64,000 bases of DNA from Candidatus Gastranaerophilales bacterium. Its GTDB lineage: Bacteria > Cyanobacteriota > Vampirovibrionia > Gastranaerophilales > Gastranaerophilaceae. The translations under genes and the position numbers were made by a program. Shown piece by piece: positions 283 to 58,501 of the stretch. The notes below the pieces were generated by a model. That model did no database searches and was not told the origin of the DNA. It saw nothing but the letters and a program-made list of their open reading frames with translations. The DNA is taken from assembly GCA_947630535.1 (NCBI GenBank), contig CANRHZ010000001.1:62001-126000 (forward strand), given 5' to 3'. The stretch's first letter is position 1. The number at the start of each line of letters is the position of its first letter.

Positions 283-299
283 TATAATTTTGAATTATG
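283..299 (+). promoter_or_regulatory. -10 box abutting the nanE start (leaderless candidate)
   Basis: A perfect TATAAT at 283-288 ends 8 nt before the nanE ATG at 297, and no Shine-Dalgarno-like sequence precedes the ATG. Transcription from this box would start at or within a few nucleotides of the ATG. No good -35 is visible at 17 bp spacing. Confidence 0.5.
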
Positions 300-995
300 G
301 ATAAAAAAACGGTTCTTGAAAAAATTAAAAATCAAATTATTATTTCTTCTCAGGCTCAATCAGATGAACCTTTTCACAATGAAATTGCAATGAATGCAAT
401 GATTGAAACCGTAATTAATATGGGAAAAATTAATGCTCTAAGGTTAGCAGGCAAAAGAGATATTAAAAATACAAAAGATAAATTTAAGAATAAAGTTGTT
501 ATTATCGGTATCACAAAGCCCGATAAAATTCCTTTTAACTGTAAAGAAATTGTATACATAACACCAAGCGTTGATGATGCTAAAAGCATCATTGATGCGG
601 GAGCCGACATTGTTGCATTTGATTCAACAAACAGAAAATCCGATAGCGCTCTTAGAGAAATGATTAATTTTATACACTCTCAAAATAAAATCGCAATGGC
701 AGACATCTCGCAACTCATGGAAGCAAAAAGGGCTTATGAATTTGGAGTTGATATTATATCGACAACTTTAAGCGGTTATACAAAAGAAACAGAAAATAAC
801 CCTTGTACCCCCGATTTTGAACTTCTTCAAAAATGCGCCTTAAATTTCAACATTCCCGTTATTTTAGAAGGCAAAATATGGGATAAAAATGATGTAAAAA
901 AAGCATTTTCACTTGGTGCGTACTCTGTTGTAATCGGTTCTGCCGTAACAAGACCGCATAACATTATAGCAAAATTCAAGGAAGGACTTATATGA
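297..995 (+). CDS. nanE: N-acylglucosamine-6-phosphate 2-epimerase (ManNAc-6-P epimerase)
   Basis: Converts N-acetylmannosamine 6-phosphate to N-acetylglucosamine 6-phosphate in sialic acid or amino-sugar catabolism; cytoplasmic TIM barrel. The 232-residue length is normal for NanE. Seen in order: the family start IIISSQAQSDEPFH, the strand motif GADIVAFDSTNR, MADISQLMEAKRAYEFG, the hallmark ADI/VDIISTTLSGYT region, and the phosphate-binding end LGAYSVVIGSAVTRP. The ATG is the only sensible start and may be used as a leaderless start. The stop overlaps the next gene, a ROK kinase, by 4 nt (ATGA), implying translational coupling; NanE and NanK act in consecutive steps. No sialic acid lyase or transporter lies nearby, so the source of ManNAc is not shown. 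Confidence 0.93.
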   Translation: MDKKTVLEKIKNQIIISSQAQSDEPFHNEIAMNAMIETVINMGKINALRLAGKRDIKNTKDKFKNKVVIIGITKPDKIPFNCKEIVYITPSVDDAKSIIDAGADIVAFDSTNRKSDSALREMINFIHSQNKIAMADISQLMEAKRAYEFGVDIISTTLSGYTKETENNPCTPDFELLQKCALNFNIPVILEGKIWDKNDVKKAFSLGAYSVVIGSAVTRPHNIIAKFKEGLI

Positions 996-1866: not shown

Positions 1867-2499
1867 TTAATTCTTTTTCATTATTACAAGCTCTCTTGTG
1901 TAGTTTTCCGGCAAAGGAAGTTTGTATGGAATTAATTTATAAAAGCTTAAATTAGGATATTTTTTTATGGCATAATTTAGTTCTTCTTCAACGTTTTTTG
2001 ATTTATAAGAAATAAAGTACCCCCCTTTTTTTAAATGTCTGTCGGATAACTTATAAACGTCCCCGATTTTTCCCACGGCACGATTTAAAATTATATCCGC
2101 ATTTATAATATCAACAGTTTCCGCCCTTCCTGTTATGGGGTATAAGTTATCAAGACTTAAGGCGCACTTTGCATTTTCAATAAATTTAATTTTTTTACCC
2201 GTAGAATCAAGCGCATAAATTTTTATATCAGGGAAAAATACGGATAAAATTAAAGAAGGAAACCCTCCTCCGCAACCGACATCAAGCACAACTTTATTTT
2301 TATTAAATTCACTAAATAAACAAACGGAAAGAGAATCTATAACATGCTTTTCATACAGAACTTTTATATCGTTTTTGCTCATCAAATTTGTATGAGAATT
2401 GTATTCGATAAACATAGTTTTCCAACTTTCAAGTTTATCAAGGGTTGAATTTGATACGTTAAGAGAAAACAATTCAAAAAGTTTATCTTTAATTATCAT
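1867..2499 (-). CDS. rsmG: 16S rRNA (guanine527-N7)-methyltransferase RsmG
   Basis: Methylates G527 of 16S rRNA using S-adenosylmethionine. The 210 residues match the usual length. Seen: the substrate-side motif EYNSHTNLMS, the SAM-binding motif I VLDVGCGGGFPSL, ALDSTGKKIKFIE (acidic residue that would contact the ribose) and the later NADIILNRAVGKI. The start overlaps the end of the upstream ATPase-TPR gene by 11 nt, so the two are probably co-translated. It is convergent with nanK, with a 2-nt gap. Assignment is secure; the linkage to a signalling-type ATPase is not the usual gidA-gidB-parAB context. Confidence 0.93.
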   Translation of the reverse strand: MIIKDKLFELFSLNVSNSTLDKLESWKTMFIEYNSHTNLMSKNDIKVLYEKHVIDSLSVCLFSEFNKNKVVLDVGCGGGFPSLILSVFFPDIKIYALDSTGKKIKFIENAKCALSLDNLYPITGRAETVDIINADIILNRAVGKIGDVYKLSDRHLKKGGYFISYKSKNVEEELNYAIKKYPNLSFYKLIPYKLPLPENYTRELVIMKKN

Positions 2500-4753
2500 A
2501 AAGCTGCTTCATGCCCTTAAAAATGTAATCGCCGAGTTTGATTTTCATGTCGTTAATTCTTGTTAATACCCTTTGCATGTTTTCTTTTGAAGCATTAGCT
2601 CCAAGTATTGATTTAGCTTGAAAGTAACAAATTAAAGCCTGCTCATTTTGCCTCATGTCGTAATAATAATCACCGAGTTCCAATAGAGAAATTGCAATTT
2701 CAAAAGAATTATCGGACATTCTGGCATATTCAAGAGCAAGATTTAAATATTCATACGCTTTTTCAAAATCAAAATTTCTGTAAACTTTTGCTATATTTCT
2801 TACAACATAGTATGAATTTGTATAATTTTCTTCTCTGATGTTTAAATCAAGAGCATAGTTTAAATATTCAATTGCGCCTTCATTGTCGCCCATATCGGCA
2901 AGTATTGTTCCCATATCCGTATATGCGTTTGGCAAAAATTTGGTATTAGAGGAAGTTTTGGAGTATTCAACAGATTTATTGAAATATTCAAGCGCCTCAT
3001 CCGTGTAATCGTTCTCATAATAAAGCGACCCTATTTTATATGCAATTTCAGGAAGCATAATATCGGTTTGCCCGCATGCATTTAGGGTCAGATTGAGCGC
3101 TTCTTTATATTCTTTCATGGAAGCTTTCATATCGTTTTGAGCTTCAAAAAGTTCGCCCAATGCAAATTTAACAGAAGCCTTGCTTGCATCCGATATTTTA
3201 TTTTCATCTTTTATAAGGTCATTTAAGGTATTTAAACTTTTTGAAAAGGAGTATAAATTTTTATATATTTTTGAAATTTCAATTTTATATTTAGCCCAAA
3301 AATCGTAATTTTCTTCTTTATAGCAAATATCGGCAAGCTCTCTATAGTTTACAAGCGCAAGATTGTTGTCATTTAATTTGATTGCAATGTTTGCTATATT
3401 TGTATATATTCTTATGAAATCATCAAGTTTGTTTGCAATTTTTTTAGACTGTTCAAAAAGCGATATTGCTTCCCTGTAGTTAAAGGCGGCCTGTTGTTCT
3501 TCCGCTTCTTTTATAAGGTTATTTAGCTTGGTGTCCGTTTTATTTATTGGTTCATTTTTGATTTCAGAAAAAGCATTTTTTTGACGGGGCTTAATTTCCT
3601 TACCGCCGGTCACAAACCAGTTTTGATTGATGACTTGGGCATTGTAGTTAAATATGGGTTGAATTTTAGTTCTTGCAATTTTAGGGATTTTTTCTTCCAG
3701 ATTGTCCATACAGTTTCTGATGCTTGCCCTTGATAGCCTTAATAACCTGTCTTTAGGACTTTTTTTAAGTTCGTTATCGTATACACCGATAAGATTTTTT
3801 GAAATTTGGTTTCTTTCTTGAAGGGATGTATTATCTTCAAAATATTTTCTAAAATATGATTTTATATAGTAGGTGCCAAAAAATTCAGACACAATAAACT
3901 TTGATACAAGATAGGAAAGTTGTTTAATATCGCCAAGTCCGTATGCTTCAATAAAAGACAGAGGCACATTATGATAAATACAAGACAGGTTATTTAAAAT
4001 GGGGATGTAGTTAGAGGGAATAAGAGAAATTTGCTTTTCGACAAGAAAATCTTCAAATAAATATTCGTCTTTTTTCTGCTTATATTCATCCAAAAAATCG
4101 CTCAAACTAATGCTTATTGAGTCCAAATATAAAAGAGTCATTTTTAAATATAACTCATATCCGCCCGTAACATCATATAATTCTTCAAAAAGCTTTCTTT
4201 CGGCATCATTAAAAATCTGAGATAAAAAGTTTATGCAGTCGTCTTTTTTAATTTTTTCAAATTCGAGCGTATCAATTTTTATCTCTTTATCTTCAAAAAT
4301 TTTAGACTCGGGTTTTCTTGATACAATAATAACCTTTACATTCTCAAATGTAGATATATGGGCCAAAAAATCGGATATTTCTTCGTTATTTTTTACGTTA
4401 TCGAAGTTGTCAATTAAAACAACGGAGGGAAGTTCAAGGTTTTTAAAATAAAAGCTGACTTTTTGTATAAACCCTTCCATAGGATTTTTTTTAAGGGCGA
4501 TAATTTGTTTTAGAGCATACTCTCTGAATGTGTCATAAAAAGAAAGCAAGAAATCGTCGGTTACGGTGTTTTTAAAGCAGATACATTGAAAGTGCAAAAT
4601 GTCGTTTTCATATTCATCTAAAGCTGCTTTTATAACGGAGGACTTTCCGGACCCTGAAAATCCGCTTACAAACAATAAATCCGTGTCGGAATTCAGAAAG
4701 TCATGGATTTTTTGTATATAAGTATTATAAAATTTTGTAAATACATCTTCCAT
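2489..4753 (-). CDS. STAND/AAA-like ATPase with C-terminal TPR repeats
   Basis: A 754-residue protein of unrecognised specific function. The N-terminal P-loop domain has Walker A GFSGSGKS (31-38), Walker B VVLIDNFD (111-118) and a sensor-like VIIVSRKPES shortly after, as in STAND/ORC-like ATPases. A helical middle (about 200-350) is followed by degenerate tetratricopeptide repeats from about residue 420 to the end (motifs such as ALEYFNKSVEYSK, AIEYLNYALDLN, AYEYLNLALEYAR). This layout (nucleotide switch plus TPR sensor) is typical of signal-transducing ATPases such as MalT-like or tetratricopeptide NTPases, but no DNA-binding domain is visible. It overlaps rsmG by 11 nt. The ATG at 4753 has no ribosome binding site but does have a -10-like TAAAAT 7 nt upstream. 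The ATPase-TPR architecture is firm; the role is not. Confidence 0.75.
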   Translation of the reverse strand: MEDVFTKFYNTYIQKIHDFLNSDTDLLFVSGFSGSGKSSVIKAALDEYENDILHFQCICFKNTVTDDFLLSFYDTFREYALKQIIALKKNPMEGFIQKVSFYFKNLELPSVVLIDNFDNVKNNEEISDFLAHISTFENVKVIIVSRKPESKIFEDKEIKIDTLEFEKIKKDDCINFLSQIFNDAERKLFEELYDVTGGYELYLKMTLLYLDSISISLSDFLDEYKQKKDEYLFEDFLVEKQISLIPSNYIPILNNLSCIYHNVPLSFIEAYGLGDIKQLSYLVSKFIVSEFFGTYYIKSYFRKYFEDNTSLQERNQISKNLIGVYDNELKKSPKDRLLRLSRASIRNCMDNLEEKIPKIARTKIQPIFNYNAQVINQNWFVTGGKEIKPRQKNAFSEIKNEPINKTDTKLNNLIKEAEEQQAAFNYREAISLFEQSKKIANKLDDFIRIYTNIANIAIKLNDNNLALVNYRELADICYKEENYDFWAKYKIEISKIYKNLYSFSKSLNTLNDLIKDENKISDASKASVKFALGELFEAQNDMKASMKEYKEALNLTLNACGQTDIMLPEIAYKIGSLYYENDYTDEALEYFNKSVEYSKTSSNTKFLPNAYTDMGTILADMGDNEGAIEYLNYALDLNIREENYTNSYYVVRNIAKVYRNFDFEKAYEYLNLALEYARMSDNSFEIAISLLELGDYYYDMRQNEQALICYFQAKSILGANASKENMQRVLTRINDMKIKLGDYIFKGMKQLYDN

Positions 4754-4789
4754 GTATTTTATTTTAACCGATTTTATGTTATTTATCCA
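4751..4789 (-). promoter_or_regulatory. Promoter abutting the STAND-TPR start (leaderless candidate)
   Basis: On the minus strand TGGATA (4784-4789), a 17-bp spacer and TAAAAT (4761-4766) are followed by 7 nt and the ATG. There is no Shine-Dalgarno sequence, so the transcript would begin at or near the start codon. Confidence 0.45.
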
Positions 4790-14435: not shown

Positions 14436-14460
14436 AAAAGCCTGAAAAATTCAGGCTTTT
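14436..14460. terminator. Bidirectional intrinsic terminator
   Basis: An 11-bp perfect stem (AAAAGCCTGAA / TTCAGGCTTTT) with a 3-nt loop lies between the convergent GH13 gene and the SH3-like gene. The A and T runs on both flanks suit termination in both directions. Confidence 0.9.
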
Positions 14461-15113
14461 TATCTTAAATCAGGAAAAGCGATAATTGAGCCGTTATCCA
14501 ATCGCCACTTTAACCATCCGGTTTTTGTTTCGCCATCATAGGTGGTTATTTTAACAAGCATCCAATCTTTGCTTATAAGCCATAAGGAAGTATGTTTGGG
14601 GAAAGAAAATTCATCCACTTTTGTGCTTTTAATATCGGATGAAGAATATAGAACTTTGTTTTTAGGGTTAATATTCCGAAATAAATATATACCATACTTT
14701 CTGCCGTACAAATTGAAAAACTCGCTCCAGCTCATATAGTCAATTTTTTCGGTTTTTTTTATCCAGCCGAACAGTTTCATTTTTTGATTGTAACAAACGT
14801 AATACCAATCGTCCGTATCGTATTCAACAGGCATTAACATTATCTTTTTTTCATTAGATACCGCAAGAAAAGTGTTTTCTATTTCACTATATGGTACGGA
14901 TTTTTCTCTAACAATGATATTACCGTTATCAAGAGTAACGGAAGCTATTACATTGGCATTATCATTATCCGAATCATATATTAAGACACTGTCATCAAGA
15001 GAAATTAAGCCGTTTCCGTAATAAAAGGACGGATTAACATAAGCAGGCATATAATCTGCAAATGCGACAGTTGTTGACAAGATAATAAAAAGTAAGATAA
15101 AAAGTTTTTTCAT
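14460..15113 (-). CDS. Secreted SH3-like domain protein
   Basis: 217 residues with a signal peptide (MKKLFILLFIILSTTVAFA, cleavage after about residue 19). The mature part has beta-rich segments of the bacterial SH3 type: DSDNDNANVIASVTLDNGN, DTDDWYYVCYNQKMKLFGWI, and TSLWLISKDWMLVKI followed by TGWLKWRLDNGS. Such domains usually bind peptidoglycan or other envelope partners. The gene is monocistronic and divergent from rpoB. The ATG at 15113 has no ribosome binding site but a perfect TATAAT 7 nt upstream. Export and SH3-like repeats are fairly clear; the ligand is unknown. Confidence 0.65.
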   Translation of the reverse strand: MKKLFILLFIILSTTVAFADYMPAYVNPSFYYGNGLISLDDSVLIYDSDNDNANVIASVTLDNGNIIVREKSVPYSEIENTFLAVSNEKKIMLMPVEYDTDDWYYVCYNQKMKLFGWIKKTEKIDYMSWSEFFNLYGRKYGIYLFRNINPKNKVLYSSSDIKSTKVDEFSFPKHTSLWLISKDWMLVKITTYDGETKTGWLKWRLDNGSIIAFPDLR

Positions 15114-15126
15114 TATAAATATTATA
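15111..15126 (-). promoter_or_regulatory. -10 box abutting the SH3-protein start (leaderless candidate)
   Basis: On the minus strand a perfect TATAAT (15121-15126) is separated by 7 nt from the ATG at 15113. No Shine-Dalgarno sequence is present and the -35 region is poor. Confidence 0.45.
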
Positions 15127-36024: not shown

Positions 36025-36037
36025 TAGAATTTAATTT

Positions 36038-36505
36038 ATGGTGCTTGAAAATCAAAATACAATTAATTCCGAAGGTTTAAAAAATAAAACCTACAACAAA
36101 CAAAAAAGCAAAAACAGAAAAGTAAGATACTATCTTTCTTTTATGACTATAGTTTTGCTTGCCTGCGTGATACAGGTTTCATACAGTGCACTTTTAAATA
36201 TCTCAAAAATTGTTATATACAAGGGAAAAATTACCAAAGCTCAAGCACTTAAAGATGAAGCGGAAAGAACAAATAAAAGGCTTAAAACCGAAATTGAAAA
36301 TTTTAATTCAATGCAGAAGGTTGAATCAATTGCAAGAAACAACCTTAAAATGGCGGGAGAAAACGAGGTTCTCGTTATAATAAATACCCCGAAAGAAGAA
36401 GTAAAAGAAAAAACAAAAAAAGAAAAATTTATAGATTTTTTTGAAAAACATGTGGCAAGAAAGTTTGTTCAGGAAGATAACAAAGCTGAAGTTTTACTTC
36501 CTTAA
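36038..36505 (+). CDS. FtsB/DivIC-type septum formation initiator
   Basis: 155 residues. A basic cytoplasmic N-terminus is followed by one transmembrane segment (YYLSFMTIVLLACVIQVSYS, about 31-50), then a coiled coil (KITKAQALKDEAERTNKRL), then the family signature VESIARNNLKMAGENEVLVI. Such bitopic proteins link the early and late cell-division machinery (FtsQ-FtsB-FtsL). The N- and C-terminal tails are longer than in E. coli FtsB. It sits 13 nt after dnaA, probably in one transcript, and a terminator follows. FtsL is the main alternative. Confidence 0.75.
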   Translation: MVLENQNTINSEGLKNKTYNKQKSKNRKVRYYLSFMTIVLLACVIQVSYSALLNISKIVIYKGKITKAQALKDEAERTNKRLKTEIENFNSMQKVESIARNNLKMAGENEVLVIINTPKEEVKEKTKKEKFIDFFEKHVARKFVQEDNKAEVLLP

Positions 36506-37128: not shown

Positions 37129-37599
37129 TTATATTCTTTCTAATATAAGTTTTACACTGTTTATTTCATCTTGTGCAATATCCAATTTGATATAATCCTC
37201 AAAGTATTCTCTTGCTGAGTCCATATCATTTCTTGCCATAAATAAAAGCCCTAATTTTTTATAGGAATAGGGGAACTTTTCGTTCATTGTTATTGCTTTA
37301 AGGTGAGCCGAAATTGCTTTATCGGGCTCATTATTCCCTTCGTAAGCGCAACCCAAATTATAGTATATTATAGGGCTCCGGTGATTTTCCAGAACAACTT
37401 CATAGTTTGCAATAGCGGAATAATAGTCCCCCATTTCAAATTGAAGTCTTGCAAGCTCATAGTTTATTTCATAATTATCGGGGTTTTCTTCTTCCAATCT
37501 GCCCAAAATTTCAAAGGCATCATCATATCTGCAATCCAGAATAAGTTGCCTTACAAATTCTATACCGTCTATTTGTGGTTGCCCGTCTTTTGTGTCCAT
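37129..37599 (-). CDS. TPR-repeat protein
   Basis: 156 residues made almost entirely of tetratricopeptide repeats: YDDAFEILGRLEEENPDNYE, YYSAIANYEVVLENHRSPI, PDKAISAHLKAITMNEKFP and MDSAREYFEDYIKLD. There is no signal peptide, so it is a cytoplasmic protein-protein interaction scaffold with unknown partners. First gene of a run with glutaredoxin and the omega-like ORF; divergent from yebC. Confidence 0.8.
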   Translation of the reverse strand: MDTKDGQPQIDGIEFVRQLILDCRYDDAFEILGRLEEENPDNYEINYELARLQFEMGDYYSAIANYEVVLENHRSPIIYYNLGCAYEGNNEPDKAISAHLKAITMNEKFPYSYKKLGLLFMARNDMDSAREYFEDYIKLDIAQDEINSVKLILERI

Positions 37600-37638
37600 G
37601 ATTTAATTATATTATAAAAGTAAAAAAGGAAGTAATTT

Positions 37639-41400: not shown

Positions 41401-41439
41401 AAATTAATATGTAAACTTTATACAAGCGAAAAACATTAA
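38425..41439 (+). CDS. UvrD/Rep-type helicase fused to a PD-(D/E)XK nuclease with an Fe-S motif
   Basis: 1004 residues. The superfamily 1 helicase part has Walker A AGPGTGKT (28-35), motif II VLVDEYQD, motif III VGDDDQIIYSFQGA, motif V YHGSKGREFEHVF and motif VI LLFVGITRAK. The C-terminal part starts with LSQTSLNAYLNCPLNYFY and carries nuclease residues in RMEADFEG, GFADRI and ITDFKTGSYK. It ends in CGFCAYKLIC, which with the earlier cysteine would form the 4Fe-4S staple seen in AddB-type nucleases. This resembles actinobacterial UvrD-nuclease fusions or AddA/AddB. Likely role: DNA end processing and repair. The ATG is immediately after the yebC stop. The last 4 nt overlap the convergent comEC stop. 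Confidence 0.88.
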   Translation: MQTLAVIEPNQQQKEAINSLDGPIMLLAGPGTGKTFTLIKRIENMIQKGINPQNILCLTFSDAASNEMKSRLLNLSGVKGASVNVFTYHSFCMDAIRSNPSLFELKENVMMADDITKQAILKESIDEFDKENKIEFLKDKWGNKYFYINAILSSINTIKRERTTKEEYFKFMEENEEWNLKLENLYLEKKEREEKNKVTKDILKRIETQEKKIGKAKEFYSIYEIYQKKLSLNALIDYADMINLVVERMEEDFDFLYSISKDYKYVLVDEYQDTSKVQNEIIFNILKGASTRNIFVVGDDDQIIYSFQGAQSRNLSDFLEKFKDTKIICLEENRRSSQTILDFATCLIKDDPCRLTNNPNFNIQKKLIAKGERAISNEKKIDFNIYSETIQENNEIIQKIQNLISKGTKMSEIAIILRKNDQLENYARLLKQNNIPYAIQKQKNAFDVPSFIQIYFYLKILANSYIEQDKLFALISYKPFYVSDYTLSSFLKLARKYNNPWFNIIEDNIEGDLKELKDFYSTYISLKNKKSYMPLVPFIHEVITKTGILEYYANNGDEERFENISSIKRLIDEARAYSFIHKSSRIDDFIKHLDSCYNQGIKMELDKPVEHSDAIQLATYHGSKGREFEHVFLPDLTSRVFEKFGANNKEVELPIEKSLFSQDKDKNKDAELRRLLFVGITRAKFGLYISYAQKNENSEQSLSKYICDLFPELDYLVNKKIFDLTKEIKADEIVKDIVVQYGTLYKNELINRTKNITLSQTSLNAYLNCPLNYFYSDILSVPVFVEDKDILAYGSSIHYAIDIMTKDAIKNGRWNTSEYMTDNFLEKINTFEFSSPDKKLELIERGKNSIEKNYYKFIESNPSNIISTEYRMEADFEGIKLKGFADRISKDNEGNILITDFKTGSYKKADSNPNYYNQLRFYKFLYELINGENKVKKTSLTFFEEGCKQTAPEIEAWDNEEIKQKIKEAIKGIKELNFEPKQDEKNCGFCAYKLICKLYTSEKH

Positions 41440-43961
41440 AACTTAACTTCCATAAAACGATTGGTTTTTCTGTTGTAAGAATACGGGGTTAAATTTTCAT
41501 CAACAACAAATTTAATTGCACCGTATTCTCTTGTGGATAAGACTTTTGATTTCTTTTTTAATTCCATGACGGTGAATTTATTCGGGTGTCCGTAGGGGTT
41601 TTTTCCTGTTGATATAATTGCGTATTCGGGTTTTATTTTATTCAACATATAATGACTAACCGTATTTTTTGCGCCATGGTGCGCCACTTTTAGAACATCA
41701 ATATCTTCCATATATTTATCAATCATCTCATACCCTTTTATTCCGACATCTGCCATAAAAAGAAATTTGTATTTACCGAGCGTTGCTAATGTTACCGTTG
41801 ATGCATCGTTTTTTGAGCCCTTATCGGTTTTATAGGGAACATAGTTAACAATTTTTGTATTGCCGTCATAAATAAATGTCTGTTTTTGATATGGTGTTTG
41901 ATATTTAATGTTATTTGCTTCAATATATTCTTTTATGGAACATGAATTCCTTGAATTACATTCAAGTTTAGGCAATATTAGGTTTTTAACTTTTATTTCT
42001 TTTAATATATCAACCAAACCCCCTGAATGGTCAGAATCATAGTGGGTTACAATCAGTGTGTCTATTTCTTTTATATTTTTATCGTATAAATATTCAAGAG
42101 TTATTGTTTTTGCACTTGATGCTCCGTTATACACAAATTTTCCCGTATCAATCATTATATATTTATTATCTTTTGTTTTAATGAGGGCATTATCTGCGTT
42201 TCCGACATTAAAAAATATGACTTCCGAGTTACTTTCACTAAGATTTATATATTGAACACCAAGGAGAACAACAGATATGAAAAGGAAAATATTTAATATT
42301 CTTTTTTTAAACAGATATTTTAAAGAAATGAAAAATAAAATAACGGTAATATAAAATAATACAATGCCTATAACCTTAGGCGAAGGTATTCTTATCATGG
42401 AATTGGGTAAATTAGAAAAGAAATTTGAGATATTAAGTATAATTCCTATTGTATGGTTCAATATGCCATCAAAAACGGGTAAAACAATGTTTGAAATTTT
42501 TGGTATAAAACAAAATATTGTGCTTACAAACCCCAAAAAGCTCACAATTCCGATAAATGGAATGACGCAAATGTTTGCAAGTATTGAATAAGTCGAAAAA
42601 GAATTAAAGTAATATGCTTGCAGGGGGCCTGCCCAAAGTTGAGCGACAAAAGGTATAATAAAAGCCGAGCATATTGATGTCGGAGAGAAAATTAAAAGAA
42701 ATGACTTTACAATCTTTGGAAAGTTTTTAATTTTCTTATAATAGTTCTTGTTCCTGTTCGATAAAAGGTGGTTTATAGGGGGTATACAAATTATAAGCCC
42801 CAAAGTCACAAGAAAAGATAATTGAAATCCGACATCTGCTATATATTCGGGTTTAAAAATTAATATAATAAATCCCGCCATAAAAATTAAAGATATGCCG
42901 TTTGCTTCTCTATATATTAATTTGCCTATAAGTATTATAAGAAGCATAACGGAAGCTCTCACAACGGAAGGAGGACAACCTGTCATAAGTGTATAAAGAA
43001 ATACCATAAAAATACCGGAGGTAATTTTCAATCGGTATGAAATATTTATGTAATACAGAATTAAAAGCCAAACAGATAAAATCAAAGCAACATTTAAACC
43101 TGATGCGGCAAGCAAGTGCAACAATCCTGAACTTATAAAAGACTCTTTAACATCATCAGGCGGATTAATTGCATCATCTCCAAAGACAACACCGCCCAAT
43201 ATTTCAAGCTTTGGCGATTTAATATATTTAGAATGCACATCTATAACTTTATTTCTGATATCGTGCATTTTAGTTGTAAGAAGATAATTTAAAAAAGTTA
43301 TTTTGTTTGATAAACCCTCTTTTTGAATTGCACCTTTAAAGTCAACGGTTTTAATTATTTCAAATTCGCCCTTATTTGCATAAAAAGTTCTAAGTATTCC
43401 CTTATTAGCTAAAAAATTCTTATAATCAAACTGGGAAGGGTTTGTTGCTGATGAAGGGGTGGTGAGGTTTCCCTTAATTTTAAGGATATTTCCGTATTTA
43501 ATTTTTGAGGCTTCATTATCAAAGTTTTTCAAACTTACCATAAGTGTTGAGTTATTTATTTTATAGTCCCTGTTATAAGCATTCAAACCAAGGGTTTTAA
43601 AAGAAAATTTGTATGTATCAGAGGATGTATTATGTTTTGGATTTGTTATAACCACACCTGTAATTTCCGCATTTTTAAGATAGTCTGTGTACAAAAAATC
43701 ATCTGTGTATGTGTAATGAAATTTTCCGTTAAAAAAACCTATCAAAAAGAGCAAATACAAAGAACAAAGAAAATAAACAGAGATATGTTTTCTAAAAAAT
43801 ATCAAAACAAAGATTAAAGGAAAAAGTATCATTAATGAAAACAAGGAAAACTTTTCTAAATAAAATCCTATAAGCCCAAAGGAATAGAATGCAAAAAATA
43901 ATATACAAATAAATGGTTTATTTTCACGAAGTGAAATGAAATAATCTTTTAATTCTTCCAT
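41436..43961 (-). CDS. comEC: ComEC/Rec2 DNA-uptake channel
   Basis: 841 residues. Inner-membrane channel that carries single-stranded DNA into the cell during natural transformation. Order: N-terminal membrane helices, a soluble OB-like domain (about 90-210), the Competence core with LLHLLAASGLNVALI and multiple transmembrane helices (about 270-560), then a metallo-beta-lactamase-like domain with THYDSDHSGG and VAHHGAKNTV. All three domains are present, as in full-length ComEC. It has no ribosome binding site but TAAAAT 6 nt before the ATG. Natural competence is inferred, since no other com genes are in the window. Confidence 0.92.
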   Translation of the reverse strand: MEELKDYFISLRENKPFICILFFAFYSFGLIGFYLEKFSLFSLMILFPLIFVLIFFRKHISVYFLCSLYLLFLIGFFNGKFHYTYTDDFLYTDYLKNAEITGVVITNPKHNTSSDTYKFSFKTLGLNAYNRDYKINNSTLMVSLKNFDNEASKIKYGNILKIKGNLTTPSSATNPSQFDYKNFLANKGILRTFYANKGEFEIIKTVDFKGAIQKEGLSNKITFLNYLLTTKMHDIRNKVIDVHSKYIKSPKLEILGGVVFGDDAINPPDDVKESFISSGLLHLLAASGLNVALILSVWLLILYYINISYRLKITSGIFMVFLYTLMTGCPPSVVRASVMLLIILIGKLIYREANGISLIFMAGFIILIFKPEYIADVGFQLSFLVTLGLIICIPPINHLLSNRNKNYYKKIKNFPKIVKSFLLIFSPTSICSAFIIPFVAQLWAGPLQAYYFNSFSTYSILANICVIPFIGIVSFLGFVSTIFCFIPKISNIVLPVFDGILNHTIGIILNISNFFSNLPNSMIRIPSPKVIGIVLFYITVILFFISLKYLFKKRILNIFLFISVVLLGVQYINLSESNSEVIFFNVGNADNALIKTKDNKYIMIDTGKFVYNGASSAKTITLEYLYDKNIKEIDTLIVTHYDSDHSGGLVDILKEIKVKNLILPKLECNSRNSCSIKEYIEANNIKYQTPYQKQTFIYDGNTKIVNYVPYKTDKGSKNDASTVTLATLGKYKFLFMADVGIKGYEMIDKYMEDIDVLKVAHHGAKNTVSHYMLNKIKPEYAIISTGKNPYGHPNKFTVMELKKKSKVLSTREYGAIKFVVDENLTPYSYNRKTNRFMEVKF

Positions 43962-43973
43962 AAAACAATTTTA
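43959..43973 (-). promoter_or_regulatory. -10 box abutting the comEC start (leaderless candidate)
   Basis: On the minus strand TAAAAT (43968-43973) is 6 nt from the comEC ATG and no Shine-Dalgarno sequence is present. The -35 region is weak. Confidence 0.4.
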
Positions 43974-46288: not shown

Positions 46289-47116
46289 CTAATTATTTAA
46301 CTGTCTGATTGCAAAAACCGTCTTATCAAGGTCAATCAATAGTTTATCGTCCTCATTAATTATATTTTGAGGGTCATATTGAGTTCCTGTCACGGGAGAA
46401 AATTTTGAATAGTAATTCGCATCAAATTTTAAATTACCCAGCACTTTTGCCTTATATGCCAAATCAAGAAGCATCCAATAAGATTCGCTCATACCTTCGG
46501 GTTTATCGGAATATAGTTTTTCTATTCTTCTTGCATGCAAATCAAGCACATTAACATTTGCATTAAATTTTTGAAGATTATCATGGTTTTGAACTATGAC
46601 TCTAAAACTTTCTAAAAATTTCATAACTCTAAGCATATCAACTGCATAGCTTGAAGCCTTTTCCTTATTTAAAATAACGTCCAGAAAGAGGGGGTCGTCA
46701 ATTTTAGATTGCTCAAATTCATCAGGGGTGAATTCTTCGGCATTTTTTCTATCATCTTTTATTGAGGTACTTTTTTGTTGTTTATAGCCGTATTCTGAGT
46801 TAATGTCGGGTATGCTTCCTTTGTAGCCGCCTGTTATCGGGTCGAATTCAGCTTTTTGTTTATTTTGCTTATTAAAGAATTTTGAAAAAAATCCCCTTTT
46901 TTTTGAATTTGTATTTTGATTTATGTTAACGGTTTTATTTGTTTTTGGGATAACTTCCGAAGATTCGCCATTTTTTGGCACAAATTGAGGTTTTATGTTC
47001 TTAACATTAAAAGTTAAATTAGGAGGTTCATCAATACTGTATAAATCATCCGTTGCAAAAGCGGATGTTAAAAGGGAGAATACAACGAAAAAAAGAAAGA
47101 TAAAAAGCTTTTTCAT
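46289..47116 (-). CDS. Secreted protein of unknown function
   Basis: 275 residues with a signal peptide (MKKLFIFLFFVVFSLLTSAFA). A disordered, Asn/Lys-rich stretch (about 45-130, including KKRGFFSKFFNKQNKQK) is followed by a helical C-terminal domain (about 140-275: KASSYAVDMLRVMKFLESF, ARRIEKLYSDKPEGM). I do not recognise it. There is no ribosome binding site, but a perfect TATAAT lies 7 nt before the ATG. The gene is probably first in a run with the 45445 gene and divides the pth locus from the terminator region. Confidence 0.55.
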   Translation of the reverse strand: MKKLFIFLFFVVFSLLTSAFATDDLYSIDEPPNLTFNVKNIKPQFVPKNGESSEVIPKTNKTVNINQNTNSKKRGFFSKFFNKQNKQKAEFDPITGGYKGSIPDINSEYGYKQQKSTSIKDDRKNAEEFTPDEFEQSKIDDPLFLDVILNKEKASSYAVDMLRVMKFLESFRVIVQNHDNLQKFNANVNVLDLHARRIEKLYSDKPEGMSESYWMLLDLAYKAKVLGNLKFDANYYSKFSPVTGTQYDPQNIINEDDKLLIDLDKTVFAIRQLNN

Positions 47117-57761: not shown

Positions 57762-57818
57762 AATTATATCCTTTATTAAAAACTATAATACAAAAAAATA
57801 TCCCCTGATGTAAAGTAT

Positions 57819-57856
57819 TTGTAAAAAAGGTTAAGTTTAAATATAATTAATATATG
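57819..57856 (+). promoter_or_regulatory. Promoter abutting the first response regulator start (leaderless candidate)
   Basis: TTGTAA (57819-57824), a 17-bp spacer and perfect TATAAT (57842-57847) are followed by 6 nt and the ATG at 57854, which places the expected transcription start at the ATG. There is no Shine-Dalgarno sequence next to the ATG. Clearest of the six leaderless candidates. Confidence 0.6.
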
Positions 57857-58501
57857 GACAAATGCAATATTTTAATAGTTGAGGACCATGCACTCACCCG
57901 TTTTGCGCTTCTTACCTCTTTAAGAGAAGAAGATTTTGTTGATAAAATTTATGAAGCTGAAAACGCAAATGCCGCATACAAAATAATCGAACAAAATAAG
58001 ACGGATATTGTTTTAATGGATATAGGACTCCCGATTATAGACGGTGTAAGCGCTTCAGCTGAAATTAAGAAGAAGCATCCTTTAATTAAGATAATAGTTA
58101 TCACCTCTCATAACGAAGAAAAAGAAGTTGAAGGATGTCTTAGTGCGGGCATTAGCGCATACTGTTCAAAAGATATAGAGCCATCAAAATTAATAACCCT
58201 TATAAAAGATGTCATGAACGGAGCAATGTGGTTTGACCCTTCCGTTTCGGATATTGTAATGAAAAAGACTCTCGGGAAAAAGTCTGAAACTAAACACAAG
58301 AAACCTTTATACAATCTCACCCAAAGAGAACTTAGGGTTTTATCCTTACTTGCGGAAGGCAATTCAAACAATGAAATAGCTCAAAAAATGAATATATCAA
58401 TAAATACAACAAAGGTGCACATGTGTGCCATATTGCAAAAACTCTCGGTTGACGACAGAACACAGGCTGCAATTAAGGCAATAAGGGAAAATATAATATA
58501 A
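57854..58501 (+). CDS. NarL/FixJ-type response regulator
   Basis: 215 residues. Receiver domain with acidic pair E10-D11, phosphoacceptor D56 in LMDIGLPIIDG, and switch residues in VITSHNE and AYCSKD. A C-terminal LuxR-type helix-turn-helix follows (LTQRELRVLSLLAEGNSNNE through IAQKMNISINTTKVHMCAIL). It binds DNA when phosphorylated. No histidine kinase is adjacent, so it is an orphan here. Its stop shares a base with the next regulator's ATG (TAATG). Confidence 0.92.
   Translation: MDKCNILIVEDHALTRFALLTSLREEDFVDKIYEAENANAAYKIIEQNKTDIVLMDIGLPIIDGVSASAEIKKKHPLIKIIVITSHNEEKEVEGCLSAGISAYCSKDIEPSKLITLIKDVMNGAMWFDPSVSDIVMKKTLGKKSETKHKKPLYNLTQRELRVLSLLAEGNSNNEIAQKMNISINTTKVHMCAILQKLSVDDRTQAAIKAIRENII

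Follow-up and report, generated by a model that had tools for sequence, protein, structure and literature searches.

Conserved -10 boxes directly before ATG codons point to a minority of leaderless-type gene starts in Gastranaerophilales

Boxed gene starts in the window

The window analysed here is a 64-kb stretch within a draft assembly of 1.85 Mb in 72 contigs. Its source belongs to the order Gastranaerophilales, which NCBI places in Melainabacteria, beside cyanobacteria; these organisms are non-photosynthetic gut relatives of cyanobacteria and are largely uncultured. A sequence-only reading had proposed that six genes of the window start at an ATG 6–8 nt behind a -10 box and lack a Shine-Dalgarno (SD) site. 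All six boxes are present, as is a TTGTAA with a 17-bp spacer at 57819–57847, and a seventh case missed by that reading was found at 37599. The boxes and genes are as follows.

57819..57824, plus strand: -35-like TTGTAA, 17 bp upstream of the -10 box of the response regulator gene
57842..57847, plus strand: -10 box TATAAT, 6 nt before ATG 57854
57854..58501, plus strand: putative leaderless gene, LuxR-type response regulator (REC + LuxR/GerE HTH), 215 aa (Pfam PF00072, PF00196)
283..288, plus strand: -10 box TATAAT, 8 nt before nanE ATG 297
297..995, plus strand: putative leaderless gene, N-acetylmannosamine-6-phosphate 2-epimerase (nanE), 232 aa (Pfam PF04131, NCBIfam NF002231)
15121..15126, minus strand: -10 box TATAAT, 7 nt before ATG 15113
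14460..15113, minus strand: putative leaderless gene, family-less protein with a signal-peptide-like N terminus, 217 aa
47124..47129, minus strand: -10 box TATAAT, 7 nt before ATG 47116
46289..47116, minus strand: putative leaderless gene, family-less protein with a signal-peptide-like N terminus, 275 aa
4761..4766, minus strand: -10 box TAAAAT, 7 nt before ATG 4753
2489..4753, minus strand: putative leaderless gene, AAA/STAND-like ATPase with TPR repeats, 754 aa (Pfam PF13424, PF13401)
43968..43973, minus strand: -10 box TAAAAT, 6 nt before ATG 43961
41436..43961, minus strand: candidate leaderless gene, the weakest of the six, ComEC/Rec2 competence protein, 841 aa (Pfam PF03772, NCBIfam TIGR00361)
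37606..37611, minus strand: -10 box TATAAT, 6 nt before ATG 37599 (seventh case)
37129..37599, minus strand: putative leaderless gene, TPR-repeat protein, 156 aa (Pfam TPR families)

An SD site at usable spacing is absent at all six starts first proposed. Alternative start codons for these genes were considered and rejected: each ATG is the first possible start in its frame, and the start residue is the same in most orthologs. The start codon of the response regulator is firm, since its receiver domain begins at residue 6. The products of 14460..15113 and 46289..47116 had no match in Pfam or NCBIfam, and no Rfam element was found in the 64-kb window.

We defined the box strictly as TANAAT and the gap as the number of nucleotides between box and ATG, with gaps of 6–8 as the main class. 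Our own gene calls gave a window set of 24 promoter-proximal ATG starts, which excludes 297 (no upstream neighbour inside the window) and 47116 (47 nt behind a same-strand gene) and gains 37599. Five of the 24 carry a box, against 0.64 expected from the local background or 0.72 from dinucleotide shuffles, in line with the earlier estimate of less than one chance coincidence among some 25 starts. The window is richer in such starts than the average, with 7 of about 25 boxed vs 67 of 669 promoter-proximal starts elsewhere (binomial p about 0.01).

Two upstream regions showed additional features. Between nanE (plus strand) and a divergent minus-strand gene, whose product we take to be trigger-factor-like from reading its sequence, without a family search, a block of ~50 bp (240–291) is 96–100% identical pairwise in nine genus members; the NanE proteins of the block-bearing members are 60–68% identical to the source NanE. 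The minus strand of the block carries TTGACC, followed after 18–19 bp by a TATACT-like hexamer, and the block may be a pair of divergent promoters that overlap, and might also contain an operator. No second copy was found in the sampled sequence. Upstream of the response regulator, a direct repeat, TGTAAAGTATTTGTAAA, lies at 57808–57825; it is kept in the orthologs L034 and L035, appears as TGCAAAGTGTCTTGCAAA in L039, and is possibly an autoregulatory site.

Box spacing, promoter anatomy and Shine-Dalgarno use outside the window

Since the pattern had been picked from the window itself, it was tested on other sequence, where it holds. A simple gene caller, blind to upstream motifs, was run on the window and on 1.55 Mb of independent sequence, comprising 767 kb of the same genome, 400 kb of a congener (G008) and 382 kb of other family genomes (20 stretches from 20 genomes, of other genera than that of the window). 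All figures rest on these samples, that is, 831 kb of the 1.85-Mb genome, 400 kb of G008 and 382 kb of the family.

Before the 669 promoter-proximal ATGs outside the window, TANAAT occurred 9, 5, 1, 4, 8, 1, 41, 18, 8, 11, 6, 2 and 4 times at gaps 0 to 12, on a background of 6.4 per position. The peak is sharp: it comprises gap 6 (41 boxes) and gap 7 (18), with 1 box at gap 5 and 8 at gap 8, and the excess sits at the single distance that would place +1 on the A of the ATG. At gaps 6–8, 67 boxes were observed vs 19.3 expected (Poisson p 2e-17), and the excess was significant in the rest of the genome alone (27 vs 9.4), in G008 alone (22 vs 5.1) and in the pooled family set alone (18 vs 4.8). 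The count of TANAAT before ATGs, suggested in the sequence-only reading, thus revealed an enrichment in the sampled sequence of the source genome and its relatives. At operon-internal starts, the peak was weak or absent (0 vs 0.8 in G008, 2 vs 0.6 in the family set, 4 vs 2.4 in the rest of the genome), and none of 47 promoter-proximal GTG or TTG starts carried a box. An artefact of the gene caller, by which starts would be picked near a box, was rejected: the caller takes no account of upstream motifs, and counting TATAAT without gene models, at gaps 6 and 7 before every ATG that begins a frame of at least 100 codons, gave the same peak (33 vs 9.9, 20 vs 4.9 and 18 vs 5.2).

The excess of strict boxes corresponds to ~48 of the 669 promoter-proximal starts (7%), with ~30% of boxed starts representing chance background. 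Scaled to genome size, this gives an estimate of roughly 50 leaderless-type genes in the source genome and 70 in G008. The class member G080 (34% GC) also showed an excess, spread over gaps 6–10 (10 vs 1.7 at gaps 6–8). No box excess was seen in small samples of more GC-rich class members, nor in a small sample of four other genomes of the phylum (185 promoter-proximal starts, 0 boxes vs ~2.8 expected).

We then aligned 64 starts with gaps of 6–7 on the box. Relative to the box, positions -24 to -22 are marked by T and -19 to -17 by A, and a -35-like TTG separated from the box by a 16–18-bp spacer occurs in 17 of the 64, vs 4.9% at shifted positions (~5 times the controls). The base directly before the ATG is a pyrimidine in 57/64 boxed starts vs 361/609 (p 6e-7), a signal weaker than it appears, since a pyrimidine is also common there when the box lies at another gap (65–82%). 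This anatomy fits a sigma-70-type promoter with a pyrimidine–purine start at the ATG.

SD-led initiation is the main mode, especially inside operons, and leaderless initiation would be a minority mode. Outside the window, an SD 4-mer was found at 67–72% of operon-internal starts vs 54–61% of promoter-proximal ones, and the earlier statement that genes inside operons are richer in SD sites was borne out (72–77% vs 54% with a 4-mer). The 4-mer is present in 14/72 boxed vs 381/621 unboxed starts; at boxed starts its absence follows in part from the box itself, which takes up the place of an SD. The anti-SD GGATCACCTCCTTT is intact at the 16S rRNA 3' end in all 12 class members read; the assembly that contains the window yielded no 16S gene. 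The proposal that the cell uses two modes side by side, with leaderless-type starts beside SD-led ones, is strongly, if indirectly, supported by spacing, context and conservation. Its companion claim, that leaderless transcription is frequent, stands only in part: such starts probably exist, but the word is too strong, since the excess is ~7% of promoter-proximal ATG starts, or an estimated 50–70 genes per genome.

Conservation at orthologous genes

Orthologs were compared in 175 reciprocal-best pairs between the source genome and G008 (median protein identity 73%). A box at gap 6–8 was found in both members of 12 pairs, in one member only of 8 and in neither of 155 (Fisher p 3e-12); of 16 boxed genes for which an ortholog was detected in G008, 12 kept the box. 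Promoter-proximal boxes at gap 6–8 were kept within 1 nt in 7/8 pairs, vs 8/79 for boxes elsewhere. The genes with conserved boxes are functionally varied and include those for FlhB, a ComM-like Mg-chelatase protein, a SpoIID-domain protein, Memo/AMMECR1 and an SLT transglycosylase.

Among the genes of the window, the box and its spacing are likewise kept in congeners, as the sequence-only reading would predict, with comEC as the exception. The nanE box lies at gap 7–9 in 9/9 genus members. Orthologs of 15113 were found in seven other genus members, and the box lies at gap 6–7 in 8/8 genus orthologs; the DNA further upstream is only 35% identical among them, so the box itself is under specific constraint. 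The box of 47116 lies at gap 6–7 in 7/7 orthologs with a complete N terminus, within little-conserved flanks, and a further TATAAT at gap 36 is partly kept in congeners. For 4753, TAAAAT is found at gap 7 in 8/8 orthologs; a second TAAAAT lies at gap 17, 10 bp from the proximal one (4761–4776), and both occur in seven of the eight, the proximal one alone remaining in L176. For 37599, TATAAT at gap 6 recurs before the G008 ortholog; the ortholog L085 is 82% identical to the window protein. The comEC box (43961) is poorly conserved, being present in one of two checked congeners (in L124, not in L125).

The response regulator shows a mixed picture. TATAAT at gap 6–8 precedes its orthologs in three genus members and in five genomes from neighbouring genera, and the TTGTAA with its 17-bp spacer is identical in L034 and L035. 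The best matches from most other genera, which are 46–58% identical and may be paralogs, follow immediately after another reading frame and lack the box, in many cases having a GAGGA-type SD. The start mode of this gene looks like one that switches with operon context.

Interpretation and relation to known systems

Leaderless transcription from ordinary sigma-70-type promoters explains the boxes best, with a probability that we put at about 0.88. RNA polymerase would recognise TATAAT or TAAAAT, often together with a TTG-type -35 element ~17 bp upstream, and cross a 6–7-nt AT-rich discriminator, and transcription would begin at the pyrimidine–purine step formed by the last spacer base and the A of the ATG. 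The resulting mRNA would start with AUG, with no 5' leader and no SD, and the ribosome would start at the AUG at its 5' end, presumably by the 70S/fMet-tRNA route that is known for leaderless mRNAs elsewhere. We infer both the position of the transcription start and the mode of ribosome loading from the box, its spacing, the promoter-proximal ATG context and conservation.

The boxes could instead be real but secondary promoters: a stronger promoter upstream would yield mRNA with a leader, and leaderless transcripts would be a minor product. The additional TATAAT at gap 36 before 47116, partly kept in congeners, and the largely kept TAAAAT at gap 17 before 4753 would suit such an arrangement. 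However, the proximal box is present in every complete ortholog and the distal one decays in several (L163–L166, L176), most boxed starts elsewhere have a single box, and there is no SD to serve a leader, all of which makes this improbable. Still less probable is that the hexamer acts not as a promoter but as an AU-rich element of a leadered mRNA, aiding ribosome binding, for example by protein S1. Upstream AU-rich biases of non-SD genes have been ascribed to S1 (PMC5397173), and S1-domain proteins were found in 59/59 genomes searched; yet such a role would hardly call for one specific hexamer at a distance sharp to a single base (1 box at gap 5, 41 at gap 6), for a -35 element at promoter spacing, or for the rarity of the box before operon-internal genes, whose need would be equal.

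Chance, with TATAAT arising near ATGs in AT-rich upstream DNA and the cases being hand-picked, did contribute to the initial impression: selection inflated the apparent frequency in the window (7 of about 25 vs ~10% genome-wide), and the background accounts for ~30% of the boxed starts overall. Chance is ruled out as the general explanation by the three sequence sets outside the window, given the enrichment there (p 2e-17), its replication in two independent sets and the conservation at orthologous genes, and we give it next to no weight. For single genes such as 43961, chance may be the explanation.

In Mycobacterium, Deinococcus and archaea, leaderless transcripts begin with AUG and their promoter box stands at a constant distance, and both features are common to the putative starts described here. 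In those organisms leaderless genes are a major class, in contrast to ~7% of promoter-proximal starts here; a proportion above 20% is given for Actinobacteria and Deinococcus-Thermus in the survey by Zheng et al. 2011 (PMC3160421). That survey reports leaderless genes in 207 of 953 bacterial genomes, does not name Cyanobacteria among the phyla listed as having them, and describes cyanobacterial genomes as often having neither SD-led nor leaderless starts (PMC3160421); its passages on these phyla do not mention Melainabacteria. It also defines TA-led genes by the criterion used here, a -10-like TANNNT ~10 bp upstream of the start codon and no SD (PMC3160421), and the genes of our set share the spacing of the -10 signal, the lack of an SD, the AUG, the position as first gene of a transcription unit and the conservation among orthologs.

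In photosynthetic cyanobacteria, which belong to the same wider phylum, dRNA-seq identified 48 leaderless mRNAs in Synechocystis 6714 (PMC5386190) and 19 in Synechococcus elongatus UTEX 2973 (PMC6091082), numbers per genome similar to our estimate of 50–70. Only 6/48 were conserved in the close strain 6803 (PMC5386190), by measured starts, compared with 12/16 here, by promoter box, in congeners at a median protein identity of 73%; the leaderless class thus seems more conserved here than in Synechocystis. According to a 2017 survey, upstream regions in cyanobacteria show an AT-rich bias, which possibly reflects leaderless starts or S1 sites (PMC5397173). We found no description of leaderless genes in Melainabacteria or Gastranaerophilales in the open-licence literature. 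The earlier remark that none was known for this group therefore holds for Melainabacteria, with the qualification that leaderless genes do occur in photosynthetic cyanobacteria and in numerous other bacteria; the conserved leaderless-type starts would be new for the lineage in that literature, and of a known kind.

A conserved leaderless minority would matter wherever gene starts are annotated, promoters predicted or genetic constructs designed for Gastranaerophilales, as start-codon prediction that relies on SD sites will do worst at leaderless genes. Within the cyanobacterial lineage, the non-photosynthetic sister group would also supply a further example of mixed SD and non-SD initiation, with dominant SD use beside a leaderless class. 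Speculatively, and with the odds rather against the combination as a whole, Gastranaerophilales might hold a gene-specific, stable leaderless set, with individual genes switching to SD-led starts on entering an operon (candidate: 57854), and translation of the leaderless set might differ under certain conditions.

Two further loci deserve mention. The DivIC-like gene at 36025–36505 follows its neighbour after 13 nt; it is preceded by TAGAAT at gap 7, and its ortholog in G008 by TAAAAT at the same gap, making a leaderless promoter inside an apparent operon possible. At L007:10185–14738 (minus strand), a 1517-aa protein whose only match is a weak one to DUF748 is preceded by a leaderless-type box that is conserved in G008.
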